Assembly (NCBI GenBank): GCA_026397955.1
Contig: JAPLTV010000031.1
Location: 1-35,874 of the forward strand
DNA length: 35,874 bases
Source of the DNA: Verrucomicrobiota bacterium
GTDB lineage: Bacteria; Verrucomicrobiota; Verrucomicrobiia; Opitutales; UBA953
Direction of reading: 5' to 3'
Below are positions 1,200 through 14,877 of this stretch, piece after piece. The position numbers were made by a program, and so were the translations under genes. Within the stretch, counting starts at the first letter, position 1; every line of letters begins with the position of its first letter. Below the pieces are notes generated by a model. That model made no database searches and was not told where the DNA came from. It saw nothing but the letters and a program-made list of their open reading frames with translations.

Positions 1200-1670
1200 A
1201 TGACTATCCTCTGCCTCGTCCGCGGTCCCGTCATTACGCCCGATCTCTCCCTGCAGGAGGTGCCGGTGCGCGCGGAGCGTCGCGACGTGGCGAAGCGGAT
1301 CTGGCGTACGACGGCCGAAGACGGCACCCCTTTCGGCTTCGAGCTCGAGAAGCCGTTCAAGCACGGCGACACGCTCCTGCAGGCCGCCGAGGTCCGCTAT
1401 GTCATCCGGCAGATCCCGGAGCCGGTGCTTTGCGTCTCGCTCGATATGGCAGGATCCGCCGCCGCTGGCCTCGGCTGGGCGTTTGGCAACCTCCACCTCG
1501 AAGCTTCCACCGAGCCCGGACGATTGATCGTCGCCGATTCGCCCGTCGCCCGTCGCCTACTCGAGAAACTCCGCCTGCCATTCTCCGCCGACATGCTCGT
1601 CTTCCGCCCCGGGCATTTCGCCCGCGGACCTCTTCCCGCCCATGAGTTCGGCCCCAGCCACCAGCACTGA
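1200..1670 (+). CDS. ureE: Urease accessory protein UreE (nickel metallochaperone)
   Basis: UreE delivers Ni(II) to the apo-urease/UreDFG complex. The 156-residue product has the family's usual length. Its N-terminal half carries the substrate-mimic fold (KPFKHGDTL) and its C-terminal half the metal-binding segment GNLHLE, whose histidine corresponds to the conserved interfacial Ni ligand; the usual arginine of GNRH is leucine here. The tail ends in HEFGPSHQH, a short histidine-containing extension rather than the long His run of Klebsiella UreE. The ATG lies one base after the ureC stop, and the 3' end overlaps the ureF start by 29 bases, so the genes are probably translationally coupled. 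Confidence 0.93.
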   Translation: MTILCLVRGPVITPDLSLQEVPVRAERRDVAKRIWRTTAEDGTPFGFELEKPFKHGDTLLQAAEVRYVIRQIPEPVLCVSLDMAGSAAAGLGWAFGNLHLEASTEPGRLIVADSPVARRLLEKLRLPFSADMLVFRPGHFARGPLPAHEFGPSHQH

Positions 1671-2299
1671 CACCGGTTGGCTGCTCGGATTGCTCCAGGC
1701 TTCCGATGCGCTTTACCCGACGGGTTCGTATGCGCACTCCTTCGGGCTCGAAGGGATGATCGACGCCGGCGCGGTCCGCGACCGCGCGACCTTGCGGGCT
1801 TTCTTGCTAAACTCCGTGCTGCCCTCGTTACGCAACGTGGACCTACCGCTCGCCGCCCATGCCTGGAAGGCCTTTGGCGCCTGCGATTGGTCCGCCGTGG
1901 CCGAGGTTTGCGTCTTGGCTTCCGCGCTGCGTGCTCCGCGCGAACTGCGTTCCGCCGCGGAAGCCATCGGCCGTCAGCGCGCCGAGCTCCTGGCCAACGT
2001 GCACGAAGCCGAACTCGCCCGGGAGTTCCTGCGTCGCGCCGGCGAAGGGTCCTGGCCTCATTGCACCGCGGTCGGTCTGCTATGCGTCCGTCGCCGGCGT
2101 GATCGCCGCGGCCACGAAGCTCCTCCGCTTGGGCCAGAACGCCGCGCAAAGCCTGCTCACTGAGATGGTGTCGCTCTGCCCCGCGATGGTCGGTCCGGCC
2201 TGCGAGCTGCCGCTCGACGAGATCGGCTGGTTCAATCCTTGGCTCGACGCGGCTTCGGCCCGCCACGAGACCGCCAACGCCCGCCTCTTTATTTCCTGA
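1642..2299 (+). pseudogene. ureF: Urease accessory protein UreF, internal deletion with frameshift
   Basis: UreF is part of the UreDFG complex that loads nickel into urease and acts on the GTPase UreG. The first frame, from ATG 1642, reads as normal UreF (LLGLLQASDALYPTGSYAHS, then a helical region) to about WPHCTAVG near 2076. The rest continues in a different frame from about 2078 (YASVAGVIAAATK, LRLGQ, and the C-terminal [10 protein letters not shown]) to the stop at 2297. Compared with the family layout, about 16 residues between HCTAVG and YASVAG are absent, so a non-multiple-of-three segment of roughly 50 bases appears lost. As written, the gene yields a 173-residue product with a nonsense tail. 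Flanking ureE and ureG are intact. It could be a true recent deletion or an assembly error. Confidence 0.85.
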
Positions 2300-3758: not shown

Positions 3759-3972
3759 GCTGTCGTTGGGTCGCGGTAAAGAAACGGAAAGCACCCCAGG
3801 CGAGCAGGGCGACGACGGCCATGATCATAAGCGTCGCACCCGGGTGGCGGGCGAGATGATCAGCCGTCCAGACGAACTCGTCGCCGTCATGTCCGCCTTC
3901 GTGGCCCGGGTGGGCTTGAGCGGTGAGGCTCGTGAGGACGCAGGCCAAGATGATAATCCAGAATCGGAGCAT
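3712..3972 (-). CDS. Small secreted-end, His-rich membrane protein
   Basis: I do not recognise a named family. The 86-residue product starts at 3972 (MLRFWIII); a longer in-frame start at 4017 adds 15 residues but spoils the signal sequence. It has a typical signal peptide ending at TAQA, then a short His/Asp/Glu-rich segment (HPGHEGGHDGDEF) that could bind a transition metal, a linker, and a second hydrophobic helix (TLMIMAVVALLAWGAF) followed by a basic cytoplasmic tail. It is convergent with, and overlaps, the end of the nickel-dependent urease operon. A role in nickel or copper handling is conceivable but is only inference. Confidence 0.6.
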   Translation of the reverse strand: MLRFWIIILACVLTSLTAQAHPGHEGGHDGDEFVWTADHLARHPGATLMIMAVVALLAWGAFRFFTATQRQLKAAADRNPVADKTV

Positions 3973-7146: not shown

Positions 7147-7992
7147 ATGCGCCCTCTTTTCCTCCTCAGTCTCTTTGCCCCGGTCTTCGCTCTCGCGAAC
7201 GAAGAAGGCGTCAATCCGAAGGCAACCGACCTCTTTCAGATCGGCGGCATCCCGGTCTCCAACTCGATCCTGACCACCTGGATTCTCGCGGCCGTCATCA
7301 TCATCGCCATCCGTGTCCTCATCGGCACGCCGAAGATTGTTCCGAGCAAGGGCCAGGCCCTCGTCGAGAACATGGCTTCCGGCCTGCGTGACGCCCTCGA
7401 GCCGATCGTCGGCAAGAGCATGATCGGCAAGGTATTCCCGACCCTCTGCGGCTTCTTCATCTTCATCCTGCTGATGAACTGGAGCGGCCTCCTCCCCGGA
7501 GTCGGCACGATCAAGTACAACTCGGATGGCCACTGGCTCGACGCAATCCGCCCGGCGACCTCCGACCTCAACACCACCCTCGCGCTGTCGATCATCTCGT
7601 TCGTCGCCTGGACCTATTTCGTGCTGCGCTACGCGGGCTTCAAGGTGCTGATCTTCGACCTCTTCGGTAACAAAGCCGACAAGAAGGAGCTCAGCACCCC
7701 GATGTGGATCATGCTCAGCTTCATCTTCCTCGGCGTCGGTGGCATCGAAGTCGTCTCCATCGCCTTCCGACTCATCTCCCTTTCGTTCCGTCTCTATGGT
7801 AACGTCTTCGGCGGCGAGAACCTGATCCACGCGCTCGGTGGCATCGCCCCGTACGTCGTCCCAGCCGTCGCTGGTCTCCTCGAAGTCCTCGTGGGTCTCA
7901 TCCAGGCCTTCGTCTTCACGCTCCTCTCCGCCGTGTACATCGGCCTCATCTGCAACCACGAAGGTGGCCACGACGAGGAGCACGCCCACTGA
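7147..7992 (+). CDS. atpB: ATP synthase Fo subunit a
   Basis: Subunit a forms the two proton half-channels next to the c-ring in the membrane. The 281-residue product begins with a signal-like hydrophobic stretch (LLSLFAPVFALA), then has five or so membrane helices. The essential arginine is in SLSFRLYGNVFGGENL, at residue 215, and the following helices (AFVFTLLSAVYIGLI) are conserved. It is the first gene of the atp operon; I see no atpI upstream, only 122 bases with no supportable gene. The C terminus is a short His/Glu tail (NHEGGHDEEHAH). Confidence 0.95.
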   Translation: MRPLFLLSLFAPVFALANEEGVNPKATDLFQIGGIPVSNSILTTWILAAVIIIAIRVLIGTPKIVPSKGQALVENMASGLRDALEPIVGKSMIGKVFPTLCGFFIFILLMNWSGLLPGVGTIKYNSDGHWLDAIRPATSDLNTTLALSIISFVAWTYFVLRYAGFKVLIFDLFGNKADKKELSTPMWIMLSFIFLGVGGIEVVSIAFRLISLSFRLYGNVFGGENLIHALGGIAPYVVPAVAGLLEVLVGLIQAFVFTLLSAVYIGLICNHEGGHDEEHAH

Positions 7993-8068: not shown

Positions 8069-8209
8069 ATGATCATCGCTGAAATCACTGGTTCCCTCCC
8101 TGCCGCTGCCGGCTGTCTCGCTGCCGCTATCGGCGTGGGTCTCGTTGGCGCCAAGGCCGTCGAATCCGTGGGTCGCAATCCGGATGCTTCCGGTAAGATC
8201 CTCGTCTAA
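8069..8209 (+). pseudogene. atpE: ATP synthase Fo subunit c, truncated after the polar loop
   Basis: Subunit c forms the rotating membrane ring and normally has two helices joined by a polar loop, about 70-90 residues. This one is 46 residues: helix 1 (glycine/alanine-rich AAAIGVGLVGAKAVE) and the signature loop GRNPDASGKILV are well conserved, then a TAA follows directly. The second helix, which carries the Glu/Asp that binds the transported ion, is absent. It is not found in any frame of the next 84 bases, which form a GC hairpin and the atpF leader. As written, this subunit cannot transport ions. Either a deletion removed helix 2 up to the original stop, the consensus is wrong, or another atpE exists elsewhere. 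The position between atpB and atpF is canonical. Confidence 0.85.
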
Positions 8210-8219
8210 CCGGTCACGT

Positions 8220-8244
8220 GGCGCGGCCCCGCAAGGGGCCCGCC
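8220..8244 (+). promoter_or_regulatory. Intercistronic hairpin between atpE and atpF
   Basis: A 10-pair stem (4 + 6 pairs with one bulged C) closed by a GCAA tetraloop starts 10 bases after the atpE stop. No T run follows, so it is not a classical terminator. It could stabilise the upstream message or limit read-through into atpF, helping set subunit ratios. The structure is visible; the role is inferred. Confidence 0.45.
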
Positions 8245-8293
8245 ACTTCTCTTTCCCAGCGCTGAAACCCACATCTATTTCAAAGTCCTCACC

Positions 8294-8899
8294 ATGACCT
8301 TCCTCTCCGCCCTCCTCGCCGCCGAACCCGCGCACGAAGCCGTCAAGGCCGCTGCCCACGGCGCCGCTCCTGCCGAATCCCACGGCCCCCTCGGCGATAT
8401 CATCAAGCTCTTCGGCTCCTTCGGCGTCGATGCCCCGCACCTGATCGTCCAGGTCATCAACTTCGCGATCCTCGCCTTCGTCCTCTACAAGTTCGCCATC
8501 AAGCCGGCCCTCGGCCAGCTCGAGGAACGCATCCGCCAGGCCGAGCAGCTCCAGAAGGACCGCTCTGCTGCCGAAGCCCAGCTCGCCTCCGCGCAGAAGA
8601 CCGCCGAAGCCAAGCTCGTCGCCGCCTCCGACGAAGCCGCCAAGATCCTCGCCGACGCCCGTAACTCCGCCAAGGCCGCCATCGAGGCTTCCCGTGCCGA
8701 AGCCCAAGCCGCTCAGACCGAAGTCATCGCCAAGGCCAAGGCCGCCATCGAAGCCGATCGCGTGAAGATGATGAATGAAGTCCGCGGCGAAGTTTCCCGC
8801 CTCGTGGTCGAGACCGCCGCCAAGGTGCTCGAGCAGAATCTCGACGACGCCCAGCGCGGCCGCCTCAACGAGGCTGCCGTCAAGCAGCTCGCCCGCTAA
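8294..8899 (+). CDS. atpF: ATP synthase Fo subunit b
   Basis: Subunit b is the peripheral stalk that holds the F1 head against subunit a. The 201-residue product has an Ala/His/Pro-rich N-terminal segment, one membrane helix around residues 50-70 (LIVQVINFAILAFVLYKF), the typical basic turn IKPALGQLEERI, then a long charged Ala/Glu/Lys coiled coil to the end. The N-terminal extension of about 45 residues is longer than in E. coli. Codon bias is extremely GC-rich, as in the other atp genes. Confidence 0.93.
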   Translation: MTFLSALLAAEPAHEAVKAAAHGAAPAESHGPLGDIIKLFGSFGVDAPHLIVQVINFAILAFVLYKFAIKPALGQLEERIRQAEQLQKDRSAAEAQLASAQKTAEAKLVAASDEAAKILADARNSAKAAIEASRAEAQAAQTEVIAKAKAAIEADRVKMMNEVRGEVSRLVVETAAKVLEQNLDDAQRGRLNEAAVKQLAR

Positions 8900-8914
8900 G
8901 CCTTTCCTCTTCCG

Positions 8915-9310
8915 ATGTCCGCCGCCTCCGTCCGAGCCGAAGCCAAGCGCCTCCTCGCCATGTCCCTTGAGGGCGGCGTGGTCTCCGCCGACCTGGTCGG
9001 TGCCGTGCTCGCCGCGCTCACGAAGTCACGCGCGGCCCACCAGCTCCGCCCGCTCCTCCGCGCCTACCTCGCGAACATCCGTCGCGAGCTCGCCCGGGGC
9101 GAAGCCCGCATCGAGCACGCCGGTCCTCTCTCCGCTTCCGACGCTGATGCGATCGCTGCGCACTTCTCAAAAGTGCTCGGTCGCGCCGTCCGCCCGGTCG
9201 CCCGTCGCAATGACGCACTCCTCGCCGGCTTCCGCGTGCGCGTCGGCGACGACGTCACCGACCTCACGGCCTCGCTCCGCCTGGCCAACCTCGCCAAGTC
9301 CCTTTCCTGA
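8915..9310 (+). CDS. atpH: ATP synthase F1 subunit delta, short form
   Basis: Delta connects the F1 head to the b stalk. The position between atpF and atpA and the C-terminal pattern (EHAGPLSASDADAIAAHFSKVLGR, then GFRVRVGDDVTDLTASLRLANL) identify it. At 131 residues it is about 45 shorter than the usual 175-180; the N-terminal helical domain that binds alpha is reduced to about 65 residues. The reading frame is clean and begins with a plausible ATG 15 bases after atpF, so this looks like a compact lineage variant rather than a broken gene, though an internal loss cannot be excluded given the damage in atpE. Confidence 0.82.
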   Translation: MSAASVRAEAKRLLAMSLEGGVVSADLVGAVLAALTKSRAAHQLRPLLRAYLANIRRELARGEARIEHAGPLSASDADAIAAHFSKVLGRAVRPVARRNDALLAGFRVRVGDDVTDLTASLRLANLAKSLS

Positions 9311-9347
9311 ACTCCTCCCCCAACCTTAACCCGATTTACTAAACACA

Positions 9348-10874
9348 ATGAGCAACGCGATCGACCAGATCCAGAAAGCCATCGCCGGCCTTGATACCCG
9401 CGCCGGCAAGTCCAACGTCGGCACCATCGTCTCCCTCGCGGACGGCGTCGCCTCCATCGACGGCCTCTCGGGCGTCATGATGAACGAGATGATCGAGCTA
9501 CCCGGAGGCCTTCAGGGCGTCGCGCTCAATCTCGCCGAAGACACCGTCGGCTGCGTGATCATGGGCGACATCTCCAGCCTCAAGGAAGGCATGGAAGCCA
9601 AGACCACTGGCCGCCTCCTCTCCATCCCTGTCGGCAAAGGCCTCCTCGGCCGCGTCGTCGACGCCCTCGGCAACCCGCTCGACGGCAAGGGCCCCATCGT
9701 CTCCAGCGAACGCTACCCGGTCGAGAAAATCGCCCCTGGCATCATCCCTCGCAAGTCCGTCGACCAGCCCATGCAGACCGGCATCATGGCCATCGACGCC
9801 ATGATCCCGATCGGTCGCGGCCAGCGCGAACTCATCATCGGTGACCGCGCCACGGGCAAGACCACCATCGCGATCGACACGATCATCAACCAGGCCAACG
9901 CCAACCGCGTCGGTCTCGCCTCCGGCGACGCCAACTTCCGCCCGGTGTACTCGATCTACGTCGCCATCGGCACGAAGAACTCCTCCATCGCCCGCACGAT
10001 CGGCACCCTCGAGAAGGCCGGCGCCATGGAATTCACCGTCGTCGTCGCCGCCTCGGCCGCCGATAACGCCGCTAACCAGGTCTTCGCTCCTTTCTCCGGC
10101 ACCGCCATCGGCGAGTGGTTCATGGAAAACGGCCAGGACGCACTCATCGTCTACGATGACCTTTCCAAGCACGCCGCCGCCTACCGCCAGATCTCGCTCA
10201 TCCTGAAGCGTCCGTCCGGCCGCGAAGCCTACCCGGGCGACGTGTTCTACCTCCACTCCCGCCTTCTCGAGCGCTCCGCTCGTCTCGCCGGAAAGGGTTC
10301 CCTCACCGCTCTGCCGATCATCGAGACGCAGGCCGGCGACGTGTCCGCGTACATCCCGACCAACGTGATCTCGATCACCGACGGCCAGGTGTTCCTCCAG
10401 ACCGACCTCTTCAATCAAGGCATCCGCCCCGCCGTCTCCGTCGGTCTCTCCGTCTCGCGCGTCGGTTCCGCCGCGCAGATCAAGGCCTTCAAGCAGGTCG
10501 CCGGCAAGGTGAAGGGCGAGCTCGCCAACTACCGCGAACTCGCGGCGTTCGCCCAGTTCGGCTCCGACCTCGACGCGCAGACCAAGGGCATCCTCGATAA
10601 GGGCGACCGCTTCGTCGAACTCTTCAAGCAGCCTCCGACCGCCCCGAAGTCCGCCGATATCCAGTGCGGTATCATCTGGGCCATGCAGAACGGCTTCTTC
10701 AACGACATGCCGGTGAAGTCCGTCCAGGCTGCCTCCGCCTCCCTTCAGGCCCATCTCGAAACCGCCAAGCCCGCGATCCTCACGAAGATCCGCCTCGGCA
10801 ATAAGATCGAGAAGGACGGCGAAGCCGAGCTGAAGTCCGCCTGCGAAACCTGGCGCCGCAGCTTCAAGGCCTAA
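9348..10874 (+). CDS. atpA: ATP synthase F1 subunit alpha
   Basis: Alpha is the regulatory nucleotide-binding subunit of the F1 hexamer. The 508-residue product is full length and carries the N-terminal beta barrel, the P-loop GDRATGKT near residue 165 (GDRQTGKT in most species; the glutamine is alanine here), the DDLSKHA Walker B region, the HSRLLERSA segment with the arginine finger region, and the C-terminal helical domain. Nothing is missing. It is transcribed with atpH and atpG. Confidence 0.97.
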
Positions 10875-10917
10875 GCCTCGAAGCCTTCCTCCTTCTTCCT
10901 AATCACCGCCACGCCAC

Positions 10918-11796
10918 ATGCCTAAGGGACTCCGCGAGATCCGTAACCGAATCAAATCGGTTAAGAGCACCGGCCAGATCACCCGAGCCATGCAGCTCGT
11001 GGCGTCGTCGAAGATGAAGCGCGCGCAGGACTCTGCCCGCGCCGGTCGTGCCTACGCCGAGCTCCTCGGCGAGATCCTCGACACCGCCCAGTCCAAGGTC
11101 GGCGAATTCTCCCACCCGCTCCTCACCAAGCGCGACGTCAAGGTCCGCGGCATCCTCCTCGTCACGCCCGACAAGGGCATGGCTGGAGCGCTCAACGGCA
11201 ACCTGATCCGCCTTGCCGCCGAGCAGAAGGACGCCGTCTTCGTGTGCATCGGTCGCAAGGGCGCCCAGGCTCTCGCCCGCTCTGGCCGCAAGGTCCTCGC
11301 CGACTTCCCCGTCACCGACCGCGCGAATTTCTCCGAAGTCCGCCCGGCCGCCGAATACCTGATCAAGGCCTTCACTGAAGGCACCGTCGACACCGTCGAG
11401 GTCCTCTTCGCCCACTTCAAGAACACGATGGTGCAGACCCCGCGCGTCCAGCAGCTCCTGCCGGCCGACACCCTGGTCAACCAGGCCCGTGAGTTCCGCG
11501 CCAAGCTCGGACTGCCTGAGCCGAAGATCGAAGACGACGAACGCGACATGCTCTTCGAGCCTTCCGCCGCCGCGATCCTCAACGAACTGCCCGCCCTCTT
11601 CTTCAAGCAGGCCGTCCACCAGGCCGTCCTCGAGTCCAAGGCTTCCGAGTTCAGCGCGCGTATGGTCGCCATGAAGGCCGCCACCGACAACGCCAAGAAG
11701 ATCAGCGCCGCCCTCTCCCTTGAATATAACAAGGCCCGTCAGGCTGCGATCACCCAGGAAATCCTGGAGCTCACCGCCGGCGCCGCCGCCCAGTAA
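10918..11796 (+). CDS. atpG: ATP synthase F1 subunit gamma
   Basis: Gamma is the central rotor shaft that couples c-ring rotation to catalysis. The 292-residue product has the conserved N-terminal helix (RIKSVKSTGQITRAMQLVASSK), the GILLVTPDKGMAGALN strand and the C-terminal helix ending in LEYNKARQAAITQEILEL. Length and termini are normal. It sits 43 bases after atpA and 30 bases before atpD. Confidence 0.97.
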   Translation: MPKGLREIRNRIKSVKSTGQITRAMQLVASSKMKRAQDSARAGRAYAELLGEILDTAQSKVGEFSHPLLTKRDVKVRGILLVTPDKGMAGALNGNLIRLAAEQKDAVFVCIGRKGAQALARSGRKVLADFPVTDRANFSEVRPAAEYLIKAFTEGTVDTVEVLFAHFKNTMVQTPRVQQLLPADTLVNQAREFRAKLGLPEPKIEDDERDMLFEPSAAAILNELPALFFKQAVHQAVLESKASEFSARMVAMKAATDNAKKISAALSLEYNKARQAAITQEILELTAGAAAQ

Positions 11797-13254
<1,458 letters not shown>

Positions 13255-13260
13255 GACCCC

Positions 13261-13692
13261 ATGTCCCTTACGGTCGAAATCGTCACCCCTGACCGCCGCG
13301 CCTACGAAGGCACGGCGGACAAGGTGACCCTGCCCACCGCTATGGGCAGCATCGGCATCCTGCCCGGCCACCAGCCTATCACCGCGATCATCGCCGCCGG
13401 CGAAGTCATCCTCACGGTGGACGGCAAGATCACCCGCCTCGCCATCGACCAGGGTTTCGTCCGCGTCGTCTCCGACAAGGTCTCCGTCGTCACCGAAGCC
13501 GCCATCGACGAATCGAAGATCGACCTCAAGGCCGTCGAGACCGCCGAAGCGCGTGCACGCGAAGCCGTCGAAGCCGCCCGCGGTCAGAAGGATATCGACC
13601 CAGTTGAGATCGCGAAGATGGAGCAGATTCTCCGCTTCGCCTTGGTGCAGCGCCTCGTCAAGGGCCGCACTTCGCAGGGAATGACGGAGTAA
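13261..13692 (+). CDS. atpC: ATP synthase F1 subunit epsilon
   Basis: Epsilon caps the rotor at the c-ring and can inhibit ATP hydrolysis. The 143-residue product has the N-terminal beta sandwich (VEIVTPDRRAYEG, GSIGILPGHQPITA) followed by a helical C-terminal region (AVETAEARAREAVEAARG). It begins 6 bases after the atpD stop and ends the operon. Both domains are present. Confidence 0.95.
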   Translation: MSLTVEIVTPDRRAYEGTADKVTLPTAMGSIGILPGHQPITAIIAAGEVILTVDGKITRLAIDQGFVRVVSDKVSVVTEAAIDESKIDLKAVETAEARAREAVEAARGQKDIDPVEIAKMEQILRFALVQRLVKGRTSQGMTE

Positions 13693-14607: not shown

Positions 14608-14877
14608 ATGCTCAAGCACCAGCTCATCCATCCGAAGATTTCTGAAGTCCTCGCCCGCGCGGGCCATCACTCGGTCATCCTGATCGCCGACGGCAACTAT
14701 CCGGTCTGGGGCAAGAAGGGCCCGAACGCCGAGCTGGTCTCGCTCAATCTCTCGCCGGGTATCCCGACCGTCGCTCAGGTGCTGCGTGCCGTGCTCAGCG
14801 CCGTGCCGGTCGATGCCGTCAACACGATGGGCATCCCGCCTAACGTGCTCCTTACCGTCGGCTGCCGCACGGCCTGA
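14608..14877 (+). pseudogene. RbsD/FucU-type sugar mutarotase with missing middle
   Basis: RbsD/FucU proteins interconvert sugar anomers, here probably fucose, ahead of the dehydrogenase. The family runs to about 140 residues; this ORF has 89. The N-terminal half is well conserved (LIHPKISEVLARAGHHSVILIADGNYP with the catalytic His, then LNLSPGIPTVAQVLRAVLSAVPVDAVNTM). It then passes directly to NVLLTVG, which matches the last beta strand at the extreme C terminus of the family. About 50 residues, including the Phe-Tyr region that binds the sugar, appear deleted in frame. The other frames do not contain them. Flanking genes are intact. I judge the product non-functional if the sequence is right. 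Confidence 0.75.

Follow-up and report, generated by a model that had tools for sequence, protein, structure and literature searches.

F-type ATP synthases carry ions through a c subunit (Pfam ATP-synt_C, PF00137) that is recognised, in its functional form, by two transmembrane (TM) helices joined by a polar RxP loop, and whose gene, atpE, has its place in the operon order atpBEFHAGDC; an F-ATPase c subunit deprived of its second helix could not carry ions. The gene considered here lies in a window that is the whole contig JAPLTV010000031.1 (35,874 nt) of a metagenome-assembled Verrucomicrobiota bacterium (GCA_026397955.1, G000 in the following). It has the operon placement of a regular atpE and is like the c subunits of its genus relatives in helix 1, in the GRNP loop and in its position between atpB and atpF, but it differs from them in that the assembled sequence holds neither helix 2 nor the ion-binding carboxylate.

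As the sequence comes from a metagenome, the second term of comparison is the body of errors described for metagenome-assembled genomes (MAGs). Chen et al. (2020; PMC7111523) describe local assembly errors as well as overlaps that persist as duplicated sequence where scaffolds are joined, and they caution that databases thereby receive protein-coding genes that are incomplete or incorrect. The present bin is alike in dropped sequence and in exact duplication, and differs in that the unmerged overlaps described there come with N, whereas no N was counted in the window or in seven further stretches of G000. Were the deletion true, an otherwise intact ATP synthase operon would be left without the ion carrier of its rotor, a most surprising state. 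If it is an artefact, the lesson is that a short and strongly shared gene such as atpE can lose a part cleanly and in frame in a MAG, with no N as a warning and with a result that resembles biology.

Genomes and Comparisons

The assembly to which the window belongs comprises 2,454,854 bases in 126 contigs, with 93.62% completeness and 4.3% contamination. The window was compared with seven relatives, among which G013 served as reference for the joint in atpE, as, among the relatives with one contig spanning the joint, it has the nearest a subunit (97% identity, like G024). Losses in the relatives themselves were scanned in the homologous stretches of six of them, where those of at least 50 nt relative to at least two others were counted. 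The c subunit was further surveyed in 55 genomes of the genus and, as a separate set, in 38 loci of the genome_contigs collection whose a subunit shows 75% identity or more.

The atpE Gene as Assembled

The atpE open reading frame runs from an ATG at 8069 to a TAA at 8207-8209, i.e., 46 codons, and its product is MIIAEITGSLPAAAGCLAAAIGVGLVGAKAVESVGRNPDASGKILV (Table 1). Its match to the PF00137 profile covers positions 4-41 of 60 only, positions 42-60 being unmatched, and helix 1 and the loop are thus all that is left of the two-helix arrangement. The helix-2 carboxylate, which lies within GMALAEAVAFY in the relatives and is present in their full-length copies, is absent from the window. The preliminary description had stated that the c subunit ends after helix 1 and the loop and that helix 2 has been removed by a gap instead of being masked by a point mutation. 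Both statements are borne out. Relative to G013, the gene is short by exactly 63 nt, namely the codons QSILGMALAEAVAFYAIFLAK (helix 2, carboxylate and C-terminus), which are missing between GTC and the native TAA, in frame and at codon boundaries. It was also right that an Fo motor with such a subunit could not work, ion carriage being impossible from what is established of F-ATPases. The loss is visible against all seven relatives compared, with a length of 58 nt when the reference is G001, whose own copy has lost 5 nt.

Table 1. Features of the window that bear on the loss in atpE.
Feature	Position	Strand	Remarks
ureF	1642-2163	+	Frame shifted by the loss of 56 nt near 2072 (region 1642-2300), relative to both covering relatives (G063 and G001)
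atpB (a subunit)	7147-7992	+	281 aa; full-length match to relatives
atpE, assembled form	8069-8209	+	Helix 1, loop GRNPDASGKILV and native TAA; gap of 63 nt (21 codons) at 8206/8207
Joint GTC/TAA	8206-8207		Zero microhomology relative to G013; presumed assembly join
atpE-atpF spacer with GC hairpin	8210-8293	+	Conserved in genus relatives with intact atpE
atpF, atpH, atpA, atpG, atpD and atpC	8294-13692	+	Pfam match for each frame
RbsD/FucU-family gene	14608-14877	+	In-frame 177-nt loss at about 14840, relative to six of six relatives (179 by BLAST for G001 and G025)

The GC hairpin following the stop, to which attention had been drawn, is real (z -5.40), but it belongs to the ordinary atpE-atpF spacer and is also found 3' of the intact atpE of the aligned relatives. 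The mechanism put forward with it, i.e., that two short direct repeats, copies of 'atcctcgtc' located in the loop and near the stop, recombined and so deleted helix 2, found nothing to support it. Ahead of the stop, the relatives have ATCTTCCTCGCGAAG and not ATCCTCGTC, their gene ending in ATCTTCCTCGCGAAG-TAA, and the bases shared at the joint with the closest relative (G013) amount to zero, which makes such an exchange barely conceivable.

A full-length atpE located elsewhere, which had been named as what could make the window copy dispensable, was looked for in the incomplete assembly at hand and was not found, a search of the 126 contigs with the PF00137 profile returning the window gene only. 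When the 261-base DNA of an intact atpE (from G024) was used as query against the same assembly, the only matches were the sequences on either side of the gap and two weak ones. The weak match to the helix-2 part, C93:13640-13684 (83% over 45 nt), was rejected as a stray helix 2 as it lies inside a nitrite/sulfite reductase gene. A split or recoded gene, in which helix 2 would come from frameshifting, from a separate peptide or from another copy of atpE, is therefore highly improbable; incompleteness of the assembly (93.6%) is the sole point in its favour, against which helix-2 DNA was found neither between 8209 and atpF nor elsewhere in the assembly, and the relatives have one continuous gene. 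A narrow search of the literature on loss of subunit c returned nothing on point, from which absence from print is not claimed.

Subunit c in Related Genomes

A c subunit was matched in 36 of the 55 genomes of the genus, at full length in 34, the match stopping at profile position 41 in G000 and G001. Among the 19 genomes with no c match, four (G012, G014, G026 and G074) have an a subunit and 15 have no a-subunit match either; in the latter, the operon probably drops out of assemblies or bins. Some of these 15 genomes are rated >90% complete. Close relatives are likewise intact in the set of nearest loci, with a full c subunit in 35/38, the exceptions being L083 (G029), L105 (UBA8828) and L108 (G001). 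As for 42 more distant loci, 35 are full by pattern and L128, L147 and L151 are full on reading, which leaves L111, L113, L118 and L137.

In UBA8828, the contig stops 4 nt beyond the very point of atpE where the window has its joint; in G029, contig C131 turns into unrelated sequence in the middle of atpE and contig C88 begins 16 nt before the ATG. In G001, from Lake Pavin (C14, about 80308-80540; L032:8387-8537), atpE has undergone a 5-nt loss, namely of one GTCCA of the tandem GTCCAGTCCA, which shifts the frame after GKILV, i.e., at the same point as the window joint. G001 has no other loss of at least 50 nt in its 33 kb, and G025, with 97-98% identity to G001 over the main pieces of the alignment, has an intact atpE. 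The lesion of G001 could reflect a true mutation, an error in the consensus or a join made across 5 overlapping bases. A lesion common to the genus was considered and rejected, since the GTC/TAA junction pattern is found in one of the 55 genomes, the own assembly, and in none of the others, and since the lesion of G001 is a different one.

Other Joints in the Window and in the Bin

Altogether, three losses of at least 50 nt affect conserved genes of the window, in ureF (56 nt), atpE (63 nt) and the RbsD/FucU-family gene (177 nt). In the relatives, the same scan was blank for G001, G063, G024 and G070; G011 had a single loss (437-457 nt, relative to three of five), as had G025, where it is located at a run of N. 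At the ureF joint, about 1 nt is shared, as judged by eye from the alignment.

Other contigs of the bin carry joints of their own. On C95 (L180:534-771), positions 534-652 are repeated exactly at 653-771 (119 nt, 100%), a tandem duplication that is not in G063 and because of which FucT_N and Glyco_transf_10, the two parts of one fucosyltransferase gene, no longer share a reading frame. The figure of 119 corresponds to one of the k-mer steps of a common assembler, and we infer that the duplication is an unmerged overlap. On C49 (L182:1070-1897), about 220 nt are absent at 1519/1544 relative to the counterpart C38 and to G011 and G063, with the result that ribosomal protein S8 runs into L6, the first of whose two domains is missing. 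As C49 is a second copy of a region on C38, at 79-82% identity, it points to a probable mixture of two related genomes in the bin. On C65 (L181:3782-3806), about 1.02 kb are absent at 3782/3806 relative to G011, G063 and G070. In G011, this part falls outside the frames that we take to be dnaE-like and tyrS-like, and the loss was accordingly left out of the count of artefacts; the difference may be one of real gene content, or another joint. Damage across G000 is uneven, because C116 and C38 show no G000-specific loss over alignments with G011 of about 23 and 32 kb, where they carry 5.2 and 2.2 kb, respectively, absent from the relatives compared.

Sharing of the Missing DNA

Exact 41-mers of the missing 63 nt are found, on average, in 14.1 of 37 related loci. 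The corresponding means are 9.3 for the start of atpA, 7.5 for the remainder of atpE and 1.7-4.0 for atpB, atpF, atpH and the two spacers. As such, the missing piece has the highest mean exact sharing of the segments tested around atpE, the maximum being higher at the start of atpA (21) than in the missing piece (16). With 31-mers, sharing of the piece lost from the RbsD/FucU-family gene reaches 1.2 of 5 and that of its flanks about 0.5, and the values for ureF and C65 are 0. An argument from sharing thus fits atpE, fits RbsD/FucU weakly and does not fit ureF or C65. In a mixed sample, a strongly shared piece may be hard to place.

Assembly Error or Deletion

In all likelihood, the absence of helix 2 stems from a local error of assembly, and the c subunit underneath is an ordinary F-type one. 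We base this on the same contig having other genes cut alike, on close relatives carrying atpE whole, and on the assemblies of relatives also failing in atpE (UBA8828 and G029); further unexplained joints are found at ureF and RbsD/FucU in the window and, in the bin, at the S8-L6 fusion of C49 and on C95. The losses, the duplication and the fusion would all be joins made by software. At atpE, helix-2 DNA common to co-occurring relatives would have stopped the assembler, and the flanks of a stretch that it could not place would have been joined without N, so that 63 nt were dropped; at the other joints of the bin, sequence would have been dropped or duplicated in a comparable manner. Speaking against an error of assembly, the losses in atpE and in the RbsD/FucU-family gene are both in frame, the argument from sharing does not extend to ureF or C65, damage is uneven across the bin (C116 and C38), and the lesion of G001 is not accounted for by an artefact in the window by itself.

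The preliminary description had taken the truncation as a property of the organism, which the two further sharp losses on the contig and the glued joints on other contigs of the bin leave unsupported. A real deletion would mean that a population or strain lost the 63 nt by end joining and either has no oxidative ATP synthesis or relies on another rotary ATPase missed by the assembly. In keeping with it, the sequence is clean, in frame, cut at codon boundaries and free of N, no other PF00137 gene was found in the own assembly, and a second member of the genus, G001, has its own lesion at the same point. It is nonetheless improbable when set against three sharp losses in a single contig of 36 kb, glued joints on other contigs of the bin, 34 of 36 genus matches at full length, and a junction present in none of the other genomes of the 55-genome set. 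Besides, each of the remaining ATP synthase frames is there and has its Pfam match, which, as far as can be read from the frames, suggests that the operon is not decaying. More improbable again is the wider proposal of a real freshwater Opitutales population with a c subunit devoid of helix 2, in which G001, as a second species, would represent an independent loss by slippage of the GTCCA tandem repeat at the same codons, and Fo would have been switched off repeatedly at one mutable site.

Minor Features of the Operon

Apart from the loss in atpE, which we ascribe to assembly, two features of the operon may be recorded. At the level of DNA, and with synonymous sites included, atpE (8069-8206 in the window) is far more alike among these genomes than the adjoining atpB, for which codon choice, gene exchange or a constraint on the RNA may be responsible. 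The delta subunit (8915-9310) is short, with 131 aa matching positions 49-172 of 172 of the OSCP profile; since no loss of at least 4 nt relative to the relatives was reported in this region of the window, its shortness looks like a trait of the genus.
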